Below, one piece after another: positions 54,826-64,000 of a DNA stretch of 64,000 bases; the stretch's first letter is position 1, and each line of letters opens with the position of its first letter. The position numbers were made by a program, and so were the translations under genes. Origin of the DNA: Sulfitobacter guttiformis (GTDB lineage: Bacteria > Pseudomonadota > Alphaproteobacteria > Rhodobacterales > Rhodobacteraceae); contig NZ_RAQK01000001.1 in NCBI RefSeq assembly GCF_003610455.1, positions 2,170,001 through 2,234,000 on the forward strand, read 5' to 3'. The notes beneath the pieces are model-generated. The model saw nothing but the letters and a program-made list of their open reading frames with translations. It had not been told where the DNA came from and ran no database searches.

Positions 54826-55500
54826 TCCTCGCCTACTTCCTTGGACGAAGTGAAAATGCATCCCGCAACTGGCAGCACCTATAAGTTTATAACTTAGAAA
54901 GATGAAATAGAGGGCGAGTTTCGTAAACGCGCAGTCCGATCTTGGGAAGCATGGCGAGGATTGCACCCGTTGCTCTCGGCCTGTCGCACACCGGCAAGTC
55001 AGAGAGCCTTTGCATTAATCTGTTCATGTGATGACCAAAGGAAATTCTGTCAGCAGACCGATAATAATGATTTGGCTACATCAACGAAGGAAATGCGCAT
55101 TATAAACGTTGGCATTCAATCCTGGCGCTGGACAGCGTTTCTGGCAGTGGCAGAATTCAGCGTCCCTATACATACCGCGCAATTTGCCGGAAAATATGTG
55201 CAAATCTGTCAGAAGATATATGGTGCTGTTGGGGAGGATTGAACTCCCGCTATAGGTATACAAAACAGCAGGTTAAATGAGTATTTGTAGCGTTATTCTG
55301 GACGTGTCTTTGTAACACAATGTGATCACGTCTAGGATCGTCTGAAGGGCCTCTGATCAACTTTGCAAGCCCTGAAGTTAGATCGTGTGGCTGATTTTCA
55401 AACAATGCTATTCTCACCTATTAGAGATTTAACTTCCTATAGTGCATTGAAAAAACAGATTTGTTGTTGAGATTCATCTAATCACTATTTGGACAACAAA
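54826..55500. other. Island boundary region, mostly gene-free
   Basis: No supported gene is visible in these 675 bases. The notable element is the tRNA 3'-end copy at 55221-55248, listed separately. Sequence right of it becomes AT-richer (about 55250-55500). The 54961-55242 frame is rejected as a gene because it lacks any family match and runs through the tRNA copy. Confidence 0.5.
55221..55248 (-). other. Partial tRNA copy (3' end only), att-like site
   Basis: Read on the minus strand, GGGAG-TTCAATC-CTCCC forms a perfect T arm, followed by CAACAGC, a discriminator A and CCA (55221-55223). This is exactly the 3' 28 nt of a tRNA. The bases to the right cannot supply an anticodon or D arm, so it is a fragment. 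Tyrosine recombinases integrate at such 3' ends and leave a copy at the far end of the inserted element. The acceptor strand implies a GCTGTTG 5' end, possibly a tRNA-Thr, which is inference. Confidence 0.75.
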
Positions 55501-56184
55501 GTGAACAGTTTCAGTAATTTAGACGAGCGTATTATCCGGGAGCGAGTCAATCAGACCCAAGCCCGGGAGGCGTGGATAGATAGTGAAGACTAGCGTAAGC
55601 ATAGCTATCTCGGTAGTATGAACTGGGAGGCGCGCAGCGGCAAAAACTATCTCTATCGTCGGATCGGCAAATCAGGCAAGTCATTGGGGCCGCGATCATC
55701 TGAGACCGAAGCGACACTGAAGGCTTTTAGCGATAACAATCAACAGCTGGAGCGGCGGCAGGCGCGCCTTGCAGATCAACTTAACACACAGTCTGCGATC
55801 CTGCGGCTTGCGTCACACACGGATACCAGAGACTGCAGCTAGGGTTCTACGTGAGATGCGGATCCACGGCCGGAACTACGGTGCCCGCGTCGTCGGCACA
55901 AACGCCCTTTATGCCTACGAGGCATTGGCGGGTGTCCGATTTGAAGAGGCTATGGCCGCGACTGGCGACATTGACACTCTGCTGGATGACCGCAACCGTA
56001 TGCGATTGATTGCTGACACCAAGGAAGCGCTGGGGGTATCACCCGGTTCATTCAGCAAAAGGCGGATAAGACATTCCGGTCCCATGGCCCCAATGACTTC
56101 AGGCTCATTAATGATAGCGGATATATGGTCGAGTTCATCAGGCCGCTGCCAAGGCCATTAAATAGGCAAATGTCTGGCTCATGA
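55501..56184 (+). pseudogene. Degraded GSU2403-type nucleotidyltransferase-fold gene
   Basis: Three reading-frame pieces together match the GSU2403 nucleotidyltransferase family (NTP_transf_8). The parts are an N-terminal helical segment with a GKNYLYRRIGKSGKSLGPRS-like run, GARVVGTNALYAYEALAGVRF with ATGDIDTLLDDR, and GYMVEFIRPLPRPLNR. The gene is broken by an amber TAG at 55591-55593, a frameshift near 55815 and another near 56035 (a G run). It also ends about 80-100 residues short of the family length at 56184. In other genomes such genes occur in mobile or toxin-like contexts. Here it is non-functional debris beside the att-like scar. Confidence 0.65.
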
Positions 56185-56205: not shown

Positions 56206-58584
56206 TCACACATCGAACAGATCAACCAATAGGTTAGGATTACTGCCTTGCCCTTCTAGTTCCTCAAGCAACTGAACAAGTAGTGGATCATAGCGCTTAG
56301 CCGCGCGCACAAAGCGCTCGTTACGATTGCGTGTCCGTTTGAAGTCTTTACGTGTCTGCACGATTGCATCACGGAGGCTATCGGCAAGCGGATCTTGATC
56401 CACAACAAGTGCATTCTGAACCTTTAACCGCCACCTTAATAGTCCGCCAAGTAAAAACGGTGCGTAGTTAAAGCGAGTATAGTCTGATCCAATCTCGCCT
56501 TTGAATTCTATCAGCACACGATCGACAAGACGCTCGACATCCCGACGGTCAAGAAGAAGGGGGGCGGTATCTGAACGCGACAACAAGAAAGCGGCAGCGG
56601 CGGTTTCCTCTTTGTATTTCCACTGCTTCACATTTCTAAGAAAGATGCGTGACAAAGCCAACTTTTCTTCCTTTTCGGTTCGGCACGTTCGGCCAAAGCC
56701 TTGGTAGACAAGCACCCAATTCATCGGATGGGTGATGAACGGATGTTTGAAAAGTGGATTGCGCGCATCCCATGCTTTGAGCAAGATTTTAGGTAACTCA
56801 GCAGGAGAGCGCCTGAATTGCCAAGTCAAAAATTTAAGCGATTCATTGTCGGCAGTAAGTTCACTAGCGATGCGCTTTCGAATGTGCTGGAGCGCCTTGA
56901 GTGTAAGGTTCTCCAATTGCTCTTTGGCTTCTGGTGGCACGCCATTAGGCAAATCACCATCGCTCGAAATGCAATAATGCCTATTCGGCCTTGAAGCGAG
57001 CTTCCGTGCAAGCGCAGTCCAATCAACGTCCTCTGCGTTGATATTGTCCTGCAGAAGGCTGAGAAGCCCTGCTTCACGATTGTTATCCTCCCATGCATCC
57101 ATGCTACATGGCAGCACCAGTCTATCCGGAATTGTTGCTGGCGAAGTGCCAAGCTCATCTACCAATTCGTTCCACGGTGTATGGATTTCCTCCGCGGCAT
57201 CCCAGTCGACTATAAACTGTCTGGATAACATCGGCGCATCAACAATGAAACGCGCACGCCCCGCGGCAGGAACTTGCTCGACGCTCAATTGAACGGGCAC
57301 TGGTGCCGATGTCTTCGATGATAAATCTACACGCGCTCTTCTAGGCCATTCTTCCAAATCTTTTCTAAGATGAAGCAAAAACTCAGTTTGATTCGCTTGG
57401 ATTGCAAAAGAGGCGGGCGCCGGTGAGCGGTAGACCCGGCCGGCAGGAAGGGTTTCGGAACTGCTGATCAGATCATAGCTGGTCGCACCTGATTGGCCGA
57501 GCACAATTGTCGAGATTTGCGGAAGAAAATCAAAATATACAGGATCACCATCCGCAAATCGACGCGCTGCTTCCAAGGCACCTTTGGCTACGATGTCGTC
57601 ATTCAGTGTAGTAACCTTTAGCGCGCTCTTCTTTTGCAGCGCAGCAGATAGACGCTCCCTTACGTGACCTGTTGCGAGGGTTTCAAACAGAAGAATATCG
57701 CACCCTACCAAGTGCTCAAGCGTCTCTGCCGGGAATTCCGCGCCTTGCGATAGTGCAGTCTCCGGGGGAGAAATTATGACAAACCGGCCCCTGTCGTTTT
57801 GAATGAGCTCCGGTTCAGCTTCACCTTCCAGAGCTAATTTGTGCACCGCTATTATTTGATTAATCCAGTTTCCAGAAACATTAGGATTGCTCTCCTGAAA
57901 GAGCGTTTTGCTGCGCTCCAAGAGGCCGCTGTAACCCAGCGATGAGGCCAGATGTTTTGCAGCTTTGCTTCGCTCTGGAGCAAAAATAGGGTCTTTGCCC
58001 CCGGCCTCCAATCTCAACCTTAGGCGTTGAACAGTAAATCCGTCTGACACATGCCCTATGATTCCGATCATAAGATTGTCTTCTGGATCAAACGACATTT
58101 TATCGTCCACCAGACACCCGAGAACGGCTAAAACTGAACGCCAGACGAGAAGGCAGCGGCCCGTTTTTCCCTTGGTCATTGCTTCGATCAAGCGCTCTTG
58201 AAAGCGTTCAGAAGTTCTAGGGTCATCATCTATGGAAAGTGAACAAAACTTAGCCCCATGTGCCAGACCTGAAATTGATGCCGCCAATTGTTCCGCAGGA
58301 GCTGAATTATCCCCAAAGACTGATGTGACGGATTTTCGGCGCTCTGGGCTTCCTACAATTCCCCAACCGTTGCCCCGCCCATGAGGCGCAAGCGAGGCTT
58401 GGCTACCCCCGATCCAGCGTTGCGAGGTCTCATCTCCGATCCTCACAATGCATGGGGACAACACGCTACCGGTGGTGTGTATCCCGTCAACACGTTCATA
58501 GCCGTCTGCTTCAATGGTCCAATTTCGCGCGGCGCGGTCTTTCCAACCGTTTAGGTCGTAGCCGCAGAGTTTCTTTGATGTCAT
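56206..58584 (-). CDS. Hsp70/actin-like ATPase-fold protein of a defence-type operon
   Basis: The 792-residue protein opens with GYDLNG, a phosphate-1-like motif. It continues with LVWRSVLAVLGCLV and NLMIGIIGHVSDGFTVQRL (about residues 170-189, phosphate-2-like). It then has VTTLNDDIVAKGALEAARRFADG followed by FDFLPQISTIVLG (about 324-362), which resembles the adenosine-binding part of Hsp70. The C-terminal half (400-792) is helical and unrecognised. CoCoNuT-type McrBC relatives carry Hsp70 homologues, so this gene may sense or remodel RNA or protein. The ATG at 58584 overlaps the DUF2357 stop (ATGA) and has a GGGGGG SD; an ATG at 58596 is the alternative. Confidence 0.7.
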   Translation of the reverse strand: MTSKKLCGYDLNGWKDRAARNWTIEADGYERVDGIHTTGSVLSPCIVRIGDETSQRWIGGSQASLAPHGRGNGWGIVGSPERRKSVTSVFGDNSAPAEQLAASISGLAHGAKFCSLSIDDDPRTSERFQERLIEAMTKGKTGRCLLVWRSVLAVLGCLVDDKMSFDPEDNLMIGIIGHVSDGFTVQRLRLRLEAGGKDPIFAPERSKAAKHLASSLGYSGLLERSKTLFQESNPNVSGNWINQIIAVHKLALEGEAEPELIQNDRGRFVIISPPETALSQGAEFPAETLEHLVGCDILLFETLATGHVRERLSAALQKKSALKVTTLNDDIVAKGALEAARRFADGDPVYFDFLPQISTIVLGQSGATSYDLISSSETLPAGRVYRSPAPASFAIQANQTEFLLHLRKDLEEWPRRARVDLSSKTSAPVPVQLSVEQVPAAGRARFIVDAPMLSRQFIVDWDAAEEIHTPWNELVDELGTSPATIPDRLVLPCSMDAWEDNNREAGLLSLLQDNINAEDVDWTALARKLASRPNRHYCISSDGDLPNGVPPEAKEQLENLTLKALQHIRKRIASELTADNESLKFLTWQFRRSPAELPKILLKAWDARNPLFKHPFITHPMNWVLVYQGFGRTCRTEKEEKLALSRIFLRNVKQWKYKEETAAAAFLLSRSDTAPLLLDRRDVERLVDRVLIEFKGEIGSDYTRFNYAPFLLGGLLRWRLKVQNALVVDQDPLADSLRDAIVQTRKDFKRTRNRNERFVRAAKRYDPLLVQLLEELEGQGSNPNLLVDLFDV

Positions 58585-60080
58585 GTAGCCCCCCATATAT
58601 CGCGATGAAGGAAGCCGCGGATGGCTTCGCGTCCATGCGCCAGAGAACTTCCAACTGCGTCAAAGGCAATGGCTTCCGCGAATGCGCCATCTTTTTCAGC
58701 GCTTGCAGCATCCGGTTCGTGATGGCCTGGCATCAGGACAAGACCATGTCGAATGAGTTCAGTCTGCCCCGGAACGCGCCGCAACTCCGCGAGTCTCGAA
58801 ACCGCATTTGTTGCAGATTCCTGAGTGGGGAGCCTCGACAAGGCATGCGGCGTCCAGACCGCTACACGATGTGCAAAAGCGCTATCATCAAACGGACTTG
58901 ATATTCGTAAGGCTACGTGCGCCCGTGACAGAGTTAATAAGGTCCCTGGCTTTTCGGGGCGGGCCATCACTTCGACGACACGACCAATATTTTTGAGCCA
59001 GAATACTGCAATAGGACGTTCTTGATCAAACCAGACGCCATTTACAGCCTCCTCACGAAAGCTGATTGGTGCTTGTGCGATCAGCTCGGCGTCAGGAAGA
59101 TCGTGCAGGGCCAGAACGATTGCCAACACAGAAAAGTCTGTCCAAGTCTGCGCCTGCCAAGCCCAGAGTTCATCAAGTGCCTTTTCGCGTTTTAGAAGTG
59201 CTTCCCATGCTTCGCGGATCAGACGATAGGTTTGGTTCTCCATGAGAACATAATTTGGCGTTATGTCAGTGGTTGCCCGAGCAATACCCATGTCCGCCAG
59301 ATCCGTTGCAATAGTTTTGCAGAGTTTGACGAACGAGGCCACCGATTGGAATCGCTTGCTGCTTTGCGCACGAGGATGCTCGCGTAGCCATTCTCGCCCT
59401 ACATCTCCAGCTAAGTGCAAGTATGAGTGCGCCACACGGTTCTCGAGGGTATCGAAGTCTTCATGCCTCACGACAGCAAGGATACGTTGATTAGCCCCCG
59501 CGCGTTCAGCAATCGTGCGCCCTGGTTGACGTGAAAGCCAGCGCATAGATCCCTGGTCCATTTCTTGAACGCGGTCTAGTGACGTCAGTTCTCTATGGCG
59601 CCTCAAGACACGACGAATACGCTCTCTGAATGCCTTGAGAACGGGGATCAGTTCACCAGCTTGCCGGACGATCTCCGCCATTCTTGGATCTTCTTCCCTT
59701 TCAGCGCGGTCCCAAGCGTTGGCCAAGTTTGACCACAGGTTTGTTGGATCTATCAGCGCTTCGCCCAATTCCTGAATACGAGCTGTTACTTCGTTCATCC
59801 GCGTTAGCGCATCAAGAGCCTCTTCGTTGGCGTCTTCCTCCTTGCCTTTCCGCGGGCGTGGGGGGAATCCAACCCGATCGGGTGACTTTGCTGTGCCGCG
59901 CTTAGGATAGGGGTGTAGGAGAAGTTGCCTTGGCTCTCCTCGCACCTCGTTTTTCATCAGGACAACATGTTCTCCCACCTCATCACTAGGCCCTGCTTCG
60001 GACAAAAGACTGTGTTGTGGTCCGAATGGTTCGGACGGATCCAAGCCTTTATTGGACCATGGGCGTGGTAATCGAAGCAT
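58581..60080 (-). CDS. DUF2357 (McrC-like) protein without an evident nuclease motif
   Basis: The 499-residue protein carries the DUF2357 core: FDTLENRVAHSYLHLAGDVGREWL (about residues 225-248) and YVLMENQTYRLIREAWEALLK (about 298-318), the arrangement found in McrC N-terminal domains. The N-terminal 90 residues are disordered-looking (basic, Pro-rich). In the C-terminal part where McrC proteins hold a PD-(D/E)XK nuclease, only weak candidates (GVWFDQERPIAVFWL, VVEVMARP) are seen and no clear D...ExK. It starts on a TAATG shared with the AAA gene. The likely role is a partner and adaptor of the McrB-like ATPase. Confidence 0.75.
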   Translation of the reverse strand: MLRLPRPWSNKGLDPSEPFGPQHSLLSEAGPSDEVGEHVVLMKNEVRGEPRQLLLHPYPKRGTAKSPDRVGFPPRPRKGKEEDANEEALDALTRMNEVTARIQELGEALIDPTNLWSNLANAWDRAEREEDPRMAEIVRQAGELIPVLKAFRERIRRVLRRHRELTSLDRVQEMDQGSMRWLSRQPGRTIAERAGANQRILAVVRHEDFDTLENRVAHSYLHLAGDVGREWLREHPRAQSSKRFQSVASFVKLCKTIATDLADMGIARATTDITPNYVLMENQTYRLIREAWEALLKREKALDELWAWQAQTWTDFSVLAIVLALHDLPDAELIAQAPISFREEAVNGVWFDQERPIAVFWLKNIGRVVEVMARPEKPGTLLTLSRAHVALRISSPFDDSAFAHRVAVWTPHALSRLPTQESATNAVSRLAELRRVPGQTELIRHGLVLMPGHHEPDAASAEKDGAFAEAIAFDAVGSSLAHGREAIRGFLHRDIWGAT

Positions 60081-62095
60081 TATCGCATAACGCCCTTCCA
60101 GACGAATTGCCCGGTGGCCTCTGCGGCATCCACTGACTCCTTTATAGCATCGGCAAGTGGCTCGTCCCCATAATCAGAAGCGAGCTTGCGAAGCTGATCG
60201 AACTGCTGGCTCTTGTCCTCGACATCAACCCCCCGCAATTTCGGCAAAAGCCGCATTTCGATTTGATCTGCGAGCGCTGTGCTAATCCGCTCACCGCCGC
60301 CTTCAAGCTCGGGGTATGCAGCAACATAAGAGATGATCGATCGGCCCAACCGATGGCCAAAGGGTTTTCCAAAGCTCTGCATAAGTGCCAGCATCGCATC
60401 GACCTGAGCTTCTCCACGAGATCGGTCTGCAGTCTGAAGTGGGCGTTGGCACCATCTATCCCAAGTTGACCGGCTTAGCGCTTTCTCAGCTTGTGCTTTG
60501 CCTTGTGCAGTCACGCGCACCAGCTTCTTTGGTGCACCGAAGCGCATAACATTGGCGCGGTCGACAACCTTGTCAGACAAAGACTGAGTGCTTTCGTCTT
60601 CGTTCATGGTTCCCGCAAATAGAAGGTTGTAGCCCGGGAATACACGAACGGGGCTATTTGGTATCTCAAGCTCGATCTCAGCATCCTTGCGCAGATTCTT
60701 CTCGGCCTCCTTGCCACGGGCAGGGCGGCTTTCAAGGCGGCTTAGGAAGTCCGAAAAATAGTATTCAACCCGTGCGAGGTTCATCTCGTCGAGCAGAACC
60801 ATAAGCATTCTGTCTTGGACGGCATCATTGTTGTTCTGCTCATCTAGAGCGTAGAGCGCCCGGGCCATGTCTGTAGGACGGAAACGGCCCTCGATGTAGT
60901 TGTAAAAACCCATCAAATCCTGAGGGCTGTCCCATCTGGGCTGAACGGGCACCTGAAGAAAGCCGATGCCCATGCCGGCCGCATACTGGCGGGGCAGCTG
61001 ACTTTTCCCTGTGCCTGAGATGCCCGCAAGGACCGCCATCTGGGTCGTGTCGTTTACTTTCATCGCGGTATGGAAGGCGCGTAAAATTCTATCGGGGTAA
61101 TCGAGGCCAAAACTATTGAACCGCTTTTTTACAGTAAGTAGCGCTTCGGATTCGACAAATTGTTCGCTGACGTCCCAAGAAACCAGTCTTTCTATTACTT
61201 GCGGTGGCTTCTTCAGTTCGTGCAACGGATCTTCGTGTTTTTCCCCCGTTTGACCTGACGCAAGTCCGCGGGCCTTTTCGATTTCGCGGTCGAGGGTAGC
61301 TTTGCGCACTTCCAGACCCGTAATGCGGTCAGTAGCAATCGATTGCTCTTGCACCAAGTCGTCTTTTCGCTGTCGCGCGGCAGCCAGTTCCGCGGAAAGA
61401 CTATCAAATTCACTGCGCAAATCACCGTAAGTGCTCCGTGTTGCAGCCAGGCGGTCCTCGACTTCGGTCAATTCCGCGTTCTTTGCCACAAGCTGGCCCT
61501 CAATCCCTGAGAGTTCGGTTTCCATCTTTTGAGCGCGATCTGCCAACTGGCTCACGCGGCTCTCAGCATCTTCCAAATCACGGAGATTATCACGAAGGTC
61601 CCCAACCCGCCTCTCGAGGGTTTCTTGCTCCTTCGAAAGATCCTCGATCCGGTGAACAATTTTGTCGGCGTGGGCAAGCTTGTCGCGGACTTCCTCTAGG
61701 GTTGCTTTTGCGCTTGCAAGCTCTCCATCTAATTCAAGTTGTTCTGTCATCGCAGATTCTGTTTCCAGTCGTATTTCGGCTACTTCAGACTTTCTGGATT
61801 CCAGTTGGTTCCACTCTGTCAAAAGATCGTCGCGCTGTCGGGTCAAGGCGTCAACTTCAGCCCCGATATCGGCAACGATTGCCATCGCTTTGCGCCGTTT
61901 TTCGAGTTCTTCCTCGAGGTCAATAATGACCACCCGTTTTTCAGCAATGCGCGCGTCTATTGCTTTCTCTTCTTCAAGCGGCCCCGCCAGGGCAACCAAC
62001 TTGTCGTGCTGTGTCGCAAGAAACAACGTTATGAATGTCAAAACGACGAGTGCGATACAAAGCCCGCCAAAAACAAAAATGCTTGCACTGAACAT
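60080..62095 (-). CDS. Membrane-anchored coiled-coil McrB-like AAA+ ATPase
   Basis: The 671-residue protein has one N-terminal transmembrane helix (about residues 4-27), a long heptad-rich coiled coil (about 40-280), and an AAA+ domain. That domain has Walker A GISGTGKS (358-365), Walker B VLLDEMNLARVEYYFSDFL (433-451, catalytic Glu437) and GTMNEDES (495-502), the sensor-1 GTMN motif of the McrB/MoxR-like clade. McrB proteins form NTP-driven rings that move nucleic acid for a McrC nuclease. The coiled coil plus membrane anchor suggest a tethered assembly. The nucleotide preference (GTP or ATP) is not known. Confidence 0.88.
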   Translation of the reverse strand: MFSASIFVFGGLCIALVVLTFITLFLATQHDKLVALAGPLEEEKAIDARIAEKRVVIIDLEEELEKRRKAMAIVADIGAEVDALTRQRDDLLTEWNQLESRKSEVAEIRLETESAMTEQLELDGELASAKATLEEVRDKLAHADKIVHRIEDLSKEQETLERRVGDLRDNLRDLEDAESRVSQLADRAQKMETELSGIEGQLVAKNAELTEVEDRLAATRSTYGDLRSEFDSLSAELAAARQRKDDLVQEQSIATDRITGLEVRKATLDREIEKARGLASGQTGEKHEDPLHELKKPPQVIERLVSWDVSEQFVESEALLTVKKRFNSFGLDYPDRILRAFHTAMKVNDTTQMAVLAGISGTGKSQLPRQYAAGMGIGFLQVPVQPRWDSPQDLMGFYNYIEGRFRPTDMARALYALDEQNNNDAVQDRMLMVLLDEMNLARVEYYFSDFLSRLESRPARGKEAEKNLRKDAEIELEIPNSPVRVFPGYNLLFAGTMNEDESTQSLSDKVVDRANVMRFGAPKKLVRVTAQGKAQAEKALSRSTWDRWCQRPLQTADRSRGEAQVDAMLALMQSFGKPFGHRLGRSIISYVAAYPELEGGGERISTALADQIEMRLLPKLRGVDVEDKSQQFDQLRKLASDYGDEPLADAIKESVDAAEATGQFVWKGVMR

Positions 62096-62106
62096 ATCTA
62101 ATTTCC

Positions 62107-63681
62107 TTATTCGGGCGTAGTTGGTGCGTCGGGCACATCGGGTGGGCCATCAGGCGGCACAGTCAGGTCAGTCTGTGAATCGAGCTTTGCTTGCTGCTCC
62201 GCGAGAAGCGCTGTGACTTTGTTGAGTTCAGTTTCGGCGGCTCTCTGTTCATTGCGCGCTATGCTTACCGCACCGGCTGCCACGGATATGTTGGCTCGCA
62301 AGCCTGCAAGCTCCTCTCTGAGTGACAAAACCTCAGGGTCGAGAGCTCTCATTTGAGCCTCCAGAGTCAGAAATTCGTTTTGCAAGGTGGCCAGCTCGGA
62401 AGCGCTGCGTGTCCTTTGTTGTTCCAGGACAGCCGCCTCCGCCTGTGATGTTGTTACCTGACGCTGTGCATCTTCCGCGTCGGCCCGGAGTGACGACAGC
62501 TCATTGCGTGCCATCTGCACGTTCTGCGTGCGGGTGGTCACCTCTTCGTCCAAAGCTAATTTCTGTGCTTCAAGCTCAACGAGCCGCTGTTCGGCGTCTC
62601 CGATCGCCGCCAAGCGAGCGGTCTGGGCCGCGACCTCTGCTGCCAGCCGTTCTGCCTCAGCCGCCAGCGTATCGCGATTTGCTGTGGCTGCCGCCATTGC
62701 TTGCCGTTCCTCTGCTAGGGCCGAGGTCTGCGCGTTTAGCTGGCTATCCAGTCCAGCAAGACGCGCCTGCGCGCCGTCGGCCTGCGCATTCAAATCACTC
62801 AAACTGGCCTCGGTGGTCCCTAGCTCCGCATCTACGCGTGCGCGCTGCTGCCTGAAGTCTGCAAGGGCCTCAGTGATGCTTGTTTGTTGAGCCCGCAGGC
62901 TCTCTACCGAAGCATTTAGCTCTGACAGCTCGGACCGGCGCGCATTCACCTCAGTTTCAGCTGCCACGGCGCTTTGCTCGGTTGTCGAAATACGGCTCTC
63001 TATGTCCGCCAGATCAGCCGCCCTCACCTCCAGTCTGGCGAGCGTTGCGCTAACGCGCGCAAATTCTTCTGTCGCAGCCTTAAGCTCGGCGCGCTTGGCA
63101 TCAACGGCAGGATCAAGGCTTGATCGCTCTGTTCTGAGCGCTTGCACCTGATTTTCAAGTATGTCTCGGTCTGCGGAGAGGTCGGCGACGCCACGAGTGA
63201 GCGTATCGCGCTGGGTGGTGAGGTTGCTTATCTCGGTTGCGACGGTGCGCTTGGCATCGTTCAGCTGCCGCGTTTGCATCGCAACCTGCGCAGCTTCCTC
63301 CAGTGTCTCTTCAGCAGTCGCAAGCCTTTCATCGAGCCTGCCGATCTCCGCGTCCAGTGCATCGCGACGCGAAAGGGTTGCATCACGCTCCAAAGCAGCT
63401 GCATCGCGTTCCTCGCGGCTGCGTGCGATTTCGTCTTGCCGTTCGCTCAGCGCGCCTTGCAGGTTGGTCATTTCGGTGAGTAGATCATCGCGGCTTTTCC
63501 TCAAGCGGTCATTCTCGACAGTGAGATAGTCGATGTTACCCGCAATCTCACCAAATCGCTGGTTCAACCCGTTGACATGAAAACCCAAATAGGTGAGCCC
63601 GCCCACAGATATGACAGCAAGCACTGTAACGATTTTGGTATGAATGCGCGATTTACGCGAGGTCTCGTTCGACGATGTCAA
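62107..63681 (-). CDS. Membrane-anchored coiled-coil protein of the defence-type operon
   Basis: The 524-residue protein has an N-terminal membrane helix (about residues 17-34) and then an almost continuous coiled coil to about residue 500 (Glu/Ala/Arg/Leu heptads, for example RDDLLTEMTNLQGALSER). It ends in a Pro-rich tail (PPDGPPDVPDAP). The best start is a TTG at 63681: GGAGG lies 6 bases before it, whereas the earlier TTG at 63705 has no SD. It overlaps the upstream nuclease gene by 29 nt and precedes the ATPase gene by 11 bases. No enzymatic domain is seen. It probably pairs with the equally anchored coiled-coil ATPase. Confidence 0.85.
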   Translation of the reverse strand: MTSSNETSRKSRIHTKIVTVLAVISVGGLTYLGFHVNGLNQRFGEIAGNIDYLTVENDRLRKSRDDLLTEMTNLQGALSERQDEIARSREERDAAALERDATLSRRDALDAEIGRLDERLATAEETLEEAAQVAMQTRQLNDAKRTVATEISNLTTQRDTLTRGVADLSADRDILENQVQALRTERSSLDPAVDAKRAELKAATEEFARVSATLARLEVRAADLADIESRISTTEQSAVAAETEVNARRSELSELNASVESLRAQQTSITEALADFRQQRARVDAELGTTEASLSDLNAQADGAQARLAGLDSQLNAQTSALAEERQAMAAATANRDTLAAEAERLAAEVAAQTARLAAIGDAEQRLVELEAQKLALDEEVTTRTQNVQMARNELSSLRADAEDAQRQVTTSQAEAAVLEQQRTRSASELATLQNEFLTLEAQMRALDPEVLSLREELAGLRANISVAAGAVSIARNEQRAAETELNKVTALLAEQQAKLDSQTDLTVPPDGPPDVPDAPTTPE

Positions 63682-64000
63682 GGCATGCCTCCATATCCTT
63701 GGCAAGTTCGTCCACCCAGAAGCGGCGGACTTTCCAGCCTAGTGATTTCAGTTGATGGTCTCGCCAATGGTCTGATTGCTTTCTCTGACCATCAGTATTT
63801 TCATGGAAAAATCTTCCGTCTACCTCAAGGTCGAGCTTAACCCCGTTCGCACCGAAAAGTGCAAAGTCGAGTCGGCGACCTACGATTTCATATTGAGGTT
63901 GTGGAGTAAGTCCGCGTTTCTGGAGCGCATAGAAAACCCTGCGCTCCCAATCGCTATCAAACACGCCTTCACCGACACGTTTGCGAGGCTCGGTAGCTGC
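63653..64000 (-). CDS. C-terminus of a protein with VSR/DUF559-like PD-(D/E)XK nuclease domain, cut by window edge
   Basis: The frame is open to the right edge, so only the last 115 residues are seen. They match a VSR/DUF559/MTES_1575-type nuclease fold: FDSDWERRVFYALQKRG, RRLDFALFG (acidic active-site residue), KLDLEVDGRFFH (Glu), RDHQLKSLGWKVRRFWVDEL. Such domains often form the C-terminus of large SF1 helicases of the UPF1/DNA2 type, which would suit this operon, but no helicase motif is in view. A GTG-started 103-residue protein at 63964 is the alternative reading. It overlaps the coiled-coil gene. Confidence 0.8.
   Translation of the reverse strand, partial: AATEPRKRVGEGVFDSDWERRVFYALQKRGLTPQPQYEIVGRRLDFALFGANGVKLDLEVDGRFFHENTDGQRKQSDHWRDHQLKSLGWKVRRFWVDELAKDMEACLDIVERDLA

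Follow-up and report, generated by a model that had tools for sequence, protein, structure and literature searches.

Among the CoCoNuT systems described to date, the closest to the operon studied here is type III-B (Bell et al., 2024, eLife, PMC11090510). According to the main text of that paper, it comprises a CnuH fused directly to a Vsr-like nuclease, a coiled-coil protein encoded separately (CnuA), a coiled-coil GTPase with an NxD motif (CnuB), CnuC with an inactivated nuclease and a separate Hsp70-like protein (CnuD); it is found without TerY-P, chiefly in Alphaproteobacteria. In the same main text, the coiled coil is the sole recognisable domain of III-B CnuA, and the N-terminus of type II and III CnuB is said to consist of coiled coils only (PMC11090510). 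Further features of the subtype are a Sul7s-like wHTH at the N-terminus of CnuH, together with an OB fold and a helical insert following Walker A, an N-terminal Ig-like beta-sandwich in CnuC and HEAT-like repeats in CnuD. Here, we analyzed a five-gene operon at the right end of a 64,000-nucleotide stretch of Sulfitobacter guttiformis DNA (contig NZ_RAQK01000001.1, positions 2,170,001 to 2,234,000; hereafter the window). This operon is almost certainly a type III-B CoCoNuT, and thus of an already described kind; in contrast with the published description, both its CnuA and its CnuB carry conserved predicted transmembrane (TM) segments. The best explanation overall, to which we give a probability of about 0.8, is a mobile, probably antiviral type III-B CoCoNuT with a membrane-coupled mechanism.

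The operon matches the published subtype in its NxD coiled-coil GTPase, its UPF1-like superfamily 1 (SF1) helicase CnuH with a fused nuclease, its separate CnuA, its CnuC combining DUF2357 with an apparently inactivated nuclease, and its separate CnuD with the nucleotide-binding and substrate-binding domains of Hsp70. At its own locus, none of the VWA, PP2C and kinase families (TerY-P) could be identified by Pfam among the 15 non-operon open reading frames (ORFs) of the surrounding island, small ORFs excluded. Related loci were collected by searching one genome per species (84,980 species) with a CnuD profile and two peptide patterns, which yielded 48 loci; remote CnuD copies may have been missed because the screen used two such patterns. 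By record label, 47 of the 48 were alphaproteobacterial, taking their genera to belong to this class, and the exception was a 3-kb contig labelled as a Planctomycetales metagenome-assembled genome. Since both the gene set and the host range are those of the published type III-B CoCoNuT (PMC11090510), the statement in the original prediction that no described system had exactly this set does not hold. A tree of CnuB GTPase domains (45 rows, midpoint-rooted and with long-branch warnings; we typed the reference operons ourselves, from gene content and annotation) recovered III-B as a single clade (100/100) nested, together with III-A and III-C, in a type III group (100/98). III-C was located beside III-B with weak support (90/74).

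The predicted TM segments are located at about residues 17-34 of CnuA and 6-26 of CnuB. Overall, 151 of 159 CnuB sequences (database proteins and locus ORFs) had a hydrophobic N-terminus. These included 116 of 120 database homologs, the four exceptions beginning downstream of the segment, and 35 of 39 locus ORFs, those without it (L007, L028, L045 and L051) being cut, shortened or broken. For CnuA, 33 of 35 locus ORFs had the segment at a hydropathy above 1.5 (32 at 1.6 or higher; L012 at 1.54), and both of the others (L032 and L042) start at a contig end. Charges were counted in copies having the segment, and the counts are therefore uninformative on how often it occurs. Among 31 distinct CnuA N-termini, no charged residue was present in the 18-residue core of any, the net charge was greater on the N side in all 31, and Lys plus Arg residues (K+R) were more numerous on that side in 26 and equal on both sides in 5. 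Among 126 distinct CnuB N-termini, K+R was greater on the C side in 125, with one tie. On the basis of the positive-inside rule applied to these charges, CnuA is predicted to be N-in/C-out and CnuB N-out/C-in. The conservation of CnuA by block was highest directly after the TM segment (0.53) and reached 0.48 in the segment itself. Judged from these sequences, CnuB is very probably anchored in the membrane and CnuA almost as probably, and a periplasmic location of the CnuA coil is moderately favored. The term 'membrane-tethered', used when the operon was first noticed, is backed by these conserved predicted segments.

We also examined the N-terminus of CnuB across other CoCoNuT subtypes. Type III-A and II CoCoNuTs likewise have a helicase gene, an NxD coiled-coil CnuB and a DUF2357 or like-placed protein; unlike the III-B operon here, at least two TerY-P genes are annotated beside each of the operons compared. 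An N-terminal TM segment was absent in all eight CnuB proteins of these TerY-P-flanked operons, three of type III-A (L131-L133) and five of type II (L135, L142-L145), all plasmid-borne, with a best 19-residue hydropathy of 0.97 within the first 150 residues, the frame extended upstream included. Nine more McrB-like ORFs of mixed kind (L065-L073) reached a maximum of 1.32. On the other hand, a hydrophobic N-terminus was observed in an operon on plasmid pSYSX of the laboratory strain Synechocystis PCC 6803 (L130), which we labelled III-C from its gene content: an AAA ATPase, a DUF2357 protein, a short SF1 helicase, a PLD protein and an 800-aa protein without Pfam match. III-C resembles III-B in its NxD GTPase, DUF2357 protein and short SF1 helicase, and differs in having a PLD-family protein in place of the nuclease fusion; no TerY-P gene is annotated in the 19-kb stretch examined. 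The N-terminus of its CnuB (hydropathy 2.39) is Gly/Ala-rich and resembles two segments. Among the matches listed for III-C CnuB, 98 of 120 had a hydrophobic N-terminus at a cut of 1.6; six of the other 22 lay at 1.38-1.57 and 16 started in the coil, three of which are long proteins (P0307, P0314 and P0322). A scan of the phylum with III-A CnuB gave matches in 6 of 398 genomes at E 1e-20. Thus, among the operons sampled here, the anchor accompanies a lack of TerY-P. A single gain of the anchor is only suggested, because the join of III-B and III-C is weak.

We found no mention of membrane anchors on III-B CnuA or CnuB in the eLife main text, supplements apart (PMC11090510). The word 'transmembrane' appears there six times: twice for EssC, once each for CoCoPALM, ShdA and a '4 TM' protein, and once in the title of a reference. 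No word starting with 'membrane' was found either in this main text or in the preprint, which has four 'transmembrane' places. The subtype name was found in the literature search only in the eLife paper and its preprint. Our comparison hints that what is new here is the presence of conserved predicted TM segments on both CnuA and CnuB, tied to the subtype.

Further investigation of the individual proteins supported the assignment. Completed from the contig beyond the window, cnuH starts at window-equivalent position 66808 (G000:C1:2236808) and encodes 1051 aa. It matches the Pfam helicase families AAA_11 and AAA_12 above their cut-offs, and its best matches in PDB were SEN1, NAM7 and UPF1 (E 1e-20 to 5e-19). 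At its C-terminus, MTES_1575 (residues 955-1047; 48.9 bits, cut-off 38.2) and DUF559 (979-1047; 30.2, cut-off 20.6) were identified, which we equate with the 'Vsr-like' nuclease. Both the core SF1 residues (GPPGTGKS, the DE of motif II and NVAISRA) and the nuclease residues E955, D981, E995 and D997 were identical in 30 of 30 aligned copies; a long, weakly conserved stretch separates motifs I and II. For CnuH, the PADLOC hits PDC-S37, MkoA/MkoC and Hhe were set aside as common helicase or nuclease parts. The partial nuclease protein originally seen at the right-hand edge is therefore part of an SF1 helicase-nuclease, as had been suspected, and belongs to the operon, not to housekeeping repair.

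In CnuB, AAA_5 was detected under the Pfam cut-off (E 0.014), and the NxD motif GTMNEDEST was present in 120 of 120 CnuB proteins (GTMNEDES in the copy studied here). CnuB also matches the PADLOC candidate PDC-M26A (E 7e-41), a name that was not found in the literature searched. The coil of CnuB is similar to SMC, Rad50 and myosin; the identification of CnuA and CnuB by NCBIfam and PADLOC as SMC, Rad50, JetC or LmuB was set aside as coiled-coil cross-matching. A PDB sequence search with the CnuB profile gave coiled-coil proteins among the matches listed (60 of 87), and the CnuB GTPase domain and the CnuD profile gave zero matches. The CnuC profile gave weak unrelated matches only, and DUF2357 was found in CnuC under the Pfam cut-off (E 8e-4); CnuD had no Pfam match. 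Since the sequence searches with CnuC and CnuD were uninformative, the kinship of both rests mainly on AlphaFold 2 (AF2) folds. The CnuC model (predicted local distance difference test score, 81.7) has McrC as its closest folds. A Q, M or H stands two residues after the invariant E370 in 23 of 23 alignment rows; CnuC thus appears to retain the nuclease fold with the lysine of (D/E)xK replaced, which would leave a dead nuclease site. In a check for an Ig-like beta-sandwich, the model showed four strands in residues 1-55, hardly covered by the fold matches listed. The CnuD model has an Hsp70 fold followed by a helical C-terminal half. The McrB, McrC and Hsp70 kinship proposed at first is therefore borne out by the NxD motif, the DUF2357/McrC fold and the modelled Hsp70 fold.

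The complete set of five genes, with a common order and strand, was observed in 33 of the 48 related loci; in four of the 33, cnuH is interrupted, and in one it is truncated by the start of the contig. The remaining 15 loci showed contig-end cuts, breakage or, by the criterion used, no CnuA ORF (L045). In view of this recurring order, the five-gene set is beyond chance. At the locus studied here (Table 1), cnuH and cnuA overlap by 29 nt given the TTG start of cnuA, cnuA and cnuB are separated by 11 nt, cnuB and cnuC overlap by 1 nt, and cnuC and cnuD by 4 nt when the conserved Met is taken as the start of CnuD, which confirms the five closely packed leftward genes (junctions overlapping or within 11 bases) of the original prediction. 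The TTG codon of cnuA at the -29 position within cnuH was found in 29 of the 33 loci.

Table 1. Features of the operon and its island. Positions without a prefix are those of the window; the others carry the handles used in this study.
Feature	Position	Strand	Remarks
attL	55220..55249		30-bp direct repeat of the tRNA-Thr(GGT) 3' end; other copy at G000:C1:2259304-2259333
cnuD	56206..58584	-	Hsp70-like, 792 aa; open frame 56206-58596, start at conserved Met 58584
cnuC	58581..60080	-	DUF2357/McrC-like, 499 aa
cnuB	60080..62095	-	N-terminal TM (predicted), long coiled coil, McrB-like AAA+ GTPase, 671 aa
cnuA	62107..63681	-	coiled-coil protein, 524 aa, N-terminal TM (predicted); TTG start 63681, open frame up to 63705
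cnuH, 3' end	63653..64000	-	SF1 helicase with C-terminal MTES_1575/DUF559 nuclease; open frame leaving the window
tyrosine-integrase-like gene	L003:12594-14213		adjoins the tRNA gene; Pfam 25.2 bits, just under the cut-off of 27.1
tRNA-Thr	L003:14305-14379		

Several loci showed a damaged helicase gene or a partial operon. In L016, cnuH is interrupted near residues 296-301, and L034, L049 and L050 share an identical 732-aa leftover cnuH ORF and score. In R. tropici CIAT 899 (L134:1-4581), the record annotates the IS21 genes istA/istB immediately before this leftover ORF. Because CnuA to CnuD are open in loci with an interrupted cnuH, the rest of the operon is perhaps retained without a full helicase. 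A frame-broken CnuD-like gene was found in Rhodobacter sp. KR11 (L039), with no CnuB, CnuC or CnuH match within the locus. This gene and the CnuD-like gene of a Jannaschia plasmid (L147, below) may represent either decay or solitary use.

The operon is horizontally mobile. CnuD was found in none of 35 other genomes of the genus and in 15 of 394 genomes of the family, its own included. It was also found on four plasmid records, three from Rhizobium/Sinorhizobium and one from Jannaschia (sp. W003, L147), where the stretch examined has a CnuC piece and CnuD only and no intact operon. The island position suggested at first proved to be that of a tRNA-Thr island of about 34.1 kb between 30-bp att repeats, with an integrase-like gene. 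Its cargo includes the CoCoNuT, a divergent Type I restriction-modification (RM) cassette (HsdM-HsdS-GmrSD-HsdR), a resolvase, a DUF927 protein and an ion-channel protein. In the RM cassette (L002:11047-19001 plus L003:1-414), which is divergent from cnuH, GmrSD stands between HsdS and HsdR; a cassette of the same kind is located downstream of cnuD in Marivita (L046:13319-21527), and such cassettes mix Type I and Type IV restriction genes. Another island gene (L003:9505-10800) encodes a 431-aa protein without a Pfam family above cut-off; by eye it appears coiled-coil, and its second half contains two hydrophobic segments. Between attL and cnuD, an NTP_transf_8 nucleotidyltransferase fragment (window 55769-56161; E 1.7e-13) is probably what remains of a gene that decayed at the edge of the island.

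Among nine congener stretches, two have a short site without the island (L105, about 1.1 kb; L108, about 0.6 kb), bringing together tRNA-Thr, the SLT gene of the left flank and the right-flank gene, which we take to be murA. In four (L106, L107, L109 and L111), these parts are separated by 3 to 7 kb of other DNA, and in three (L110, L112 and L113) tRNA-Thr was not found within the 12 kb examined. In L109 (4378-4633), three more stretches of 30 bp, spaced 113 bp apart and with 93% likeness to the tRNA-Thr 3' end, stand beside the tRNA gene and may record that integration occurred here repeatedly.

The flanks of 24 related loci contained 133 ORFs, of which 116 from 21 loci were scanned (17 left out: 6 of L031, 6 of L039 and 5 of L046, including 4 RM/GmrSD genes). 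Considering the best 25 of 121 Pfam families, no family was present in more than four of these ORFs, and considering the best 25 of 164 PADLOC and of 82 PHROGs families, none was present in more than three; thus, the neighbors are not fixed. PglX, DrmD and integrase families had two or three members each among the flank families listed. Together with the patchy distribution of CnuD, this is consistent with a location in variable regions.

Based on these results, we propose the following mechanism, in which we infer complex formation, trigger, target and phage defence. An N-terminal helix would hold CnuB in the inner membrane and leave its coiled coil and GTPase ring cytoplasmic, and CnuA would be a second membrane protein whose coiled coil points into the periplasm. 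The pair may report an envelope disturbance (for example, phage genome entry) or keep the machine at the site of arrival of foreign nucleic acid. CnuC, a McrC homolog with an apparently dead nuclease, would drive the CnuB GTPase as a McrBC-like switch, CnuD may aid target recognition as an Hsp70-like clamp, and CnuH with its nuclease would be the effector that translocates along and cuts DNA or RNA. An antiviral role is probable. A more tentative idea is that the periplasmic CnuA coil and the cytoplasmic CnuB GTPase form a transmembrane relay, in which phage entry at the membrane arms or positions the Type IV machine; the trigger might then not be only a modified base or RNA feature. Membrane placement as a source of specificity has precedents in Zorya, Kiwa and SNIPE, where a membrane part is coupled to an effector acting on nucleic acid (reviewed in PMC12904381); the likeness is an analogy of placement only, with no sequence kinship claimed. 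CoCoPALM, as described in the main text of PMC11090510, has an NxD GTPase with an FtsB-like TM and coiled-coil part and is tied to signal-peptidase-like genes, and is set beside the operon by description only.

Several points weigh against a membrane-coupled antiviral system. No phage or localisation experiment on any type III-B system was found in the literature searched. The TM calls were based on hydropathy and charge only. An internal block of CnuA (121-140; 0.49) shows nearly the same conservation as the TM block, and part of the CnuA N-terminus overlaps the cnuH frame, which constrains its letters. Being several hundred residues long, the CnuA coil would exceed the width of the periplasm if straight. 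In addition, the survey did not support Type I RM as a fixed partner, as only 2 of 24 related loci with full flanks matched the island RM proteins (L046, where HsdM, HsdS, GmrSD and HsdR adjoin one another, and L036, with an HsdR match at the edge).

In the published view (main text of PMC11090510), CoCoNuTs target RNA, no membrane role is mentioned, and emphasis is placed on RNA-binding parts and Hsp70 homologs. If the operon were such a cytosolic system, its hydrophobic segments would merely park the complex at the membrane or pack in a coiled-coil bundle, without sensing, and the ends of coiled coils can indeed be hydrophobic. However, the TM segment and the next 20 residues are among the best conserved blocks of an otherwise variable CnuA (0.48 and 0.53), the charge pattern is near-invariant, and the segment is absent from all eight CnuB of TerY-P-flanked operons; we consider this explanation unlikely. 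Somewhat less doubtful is an arrangement in which both coils are cytoplasmic, CnuA being N-out despite its charges, and a parallel membrane-anchored bundle tethers the nuclease near the membrane. The cytoplasm would suit the length of the CnuA coil better, the two coils could pair directly, and the partner proteins have no predicted anchor; against it, none of the 31 distinct CnuA N-termini has more K+R on the C side, and all 31 carry the higher net charge on the N side. That the operon serves envelope or stress regulation and lies on the island by chance appears very improbable. An Hsp70-like protein and coiled-coil membrane parts could serve envelope stress, and the literature contained no phage assay that we could find, but the patchy spread (0/35 congeners, 15/394 family genomes), the att repeat and integrase-like gene, the adjoining Type I RM and GmrSD genes, the plasmid copies in Rhizobium and Sinorhizobium and the intact core motifs of the helicase-nuclease all argue against it. 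A mobile type III-B CoCoNuT coupled to the membrane is thus our preferred explanation. For the question of how CoCoNuTs discriminate foreign from own nucleic acid, the conserved predicted anchor offers a directly testable idea, namely placement at, or sensing of, the envelope. If this is true, envelope coupling would add relatives of McrBC to the membrane-coupled defences.

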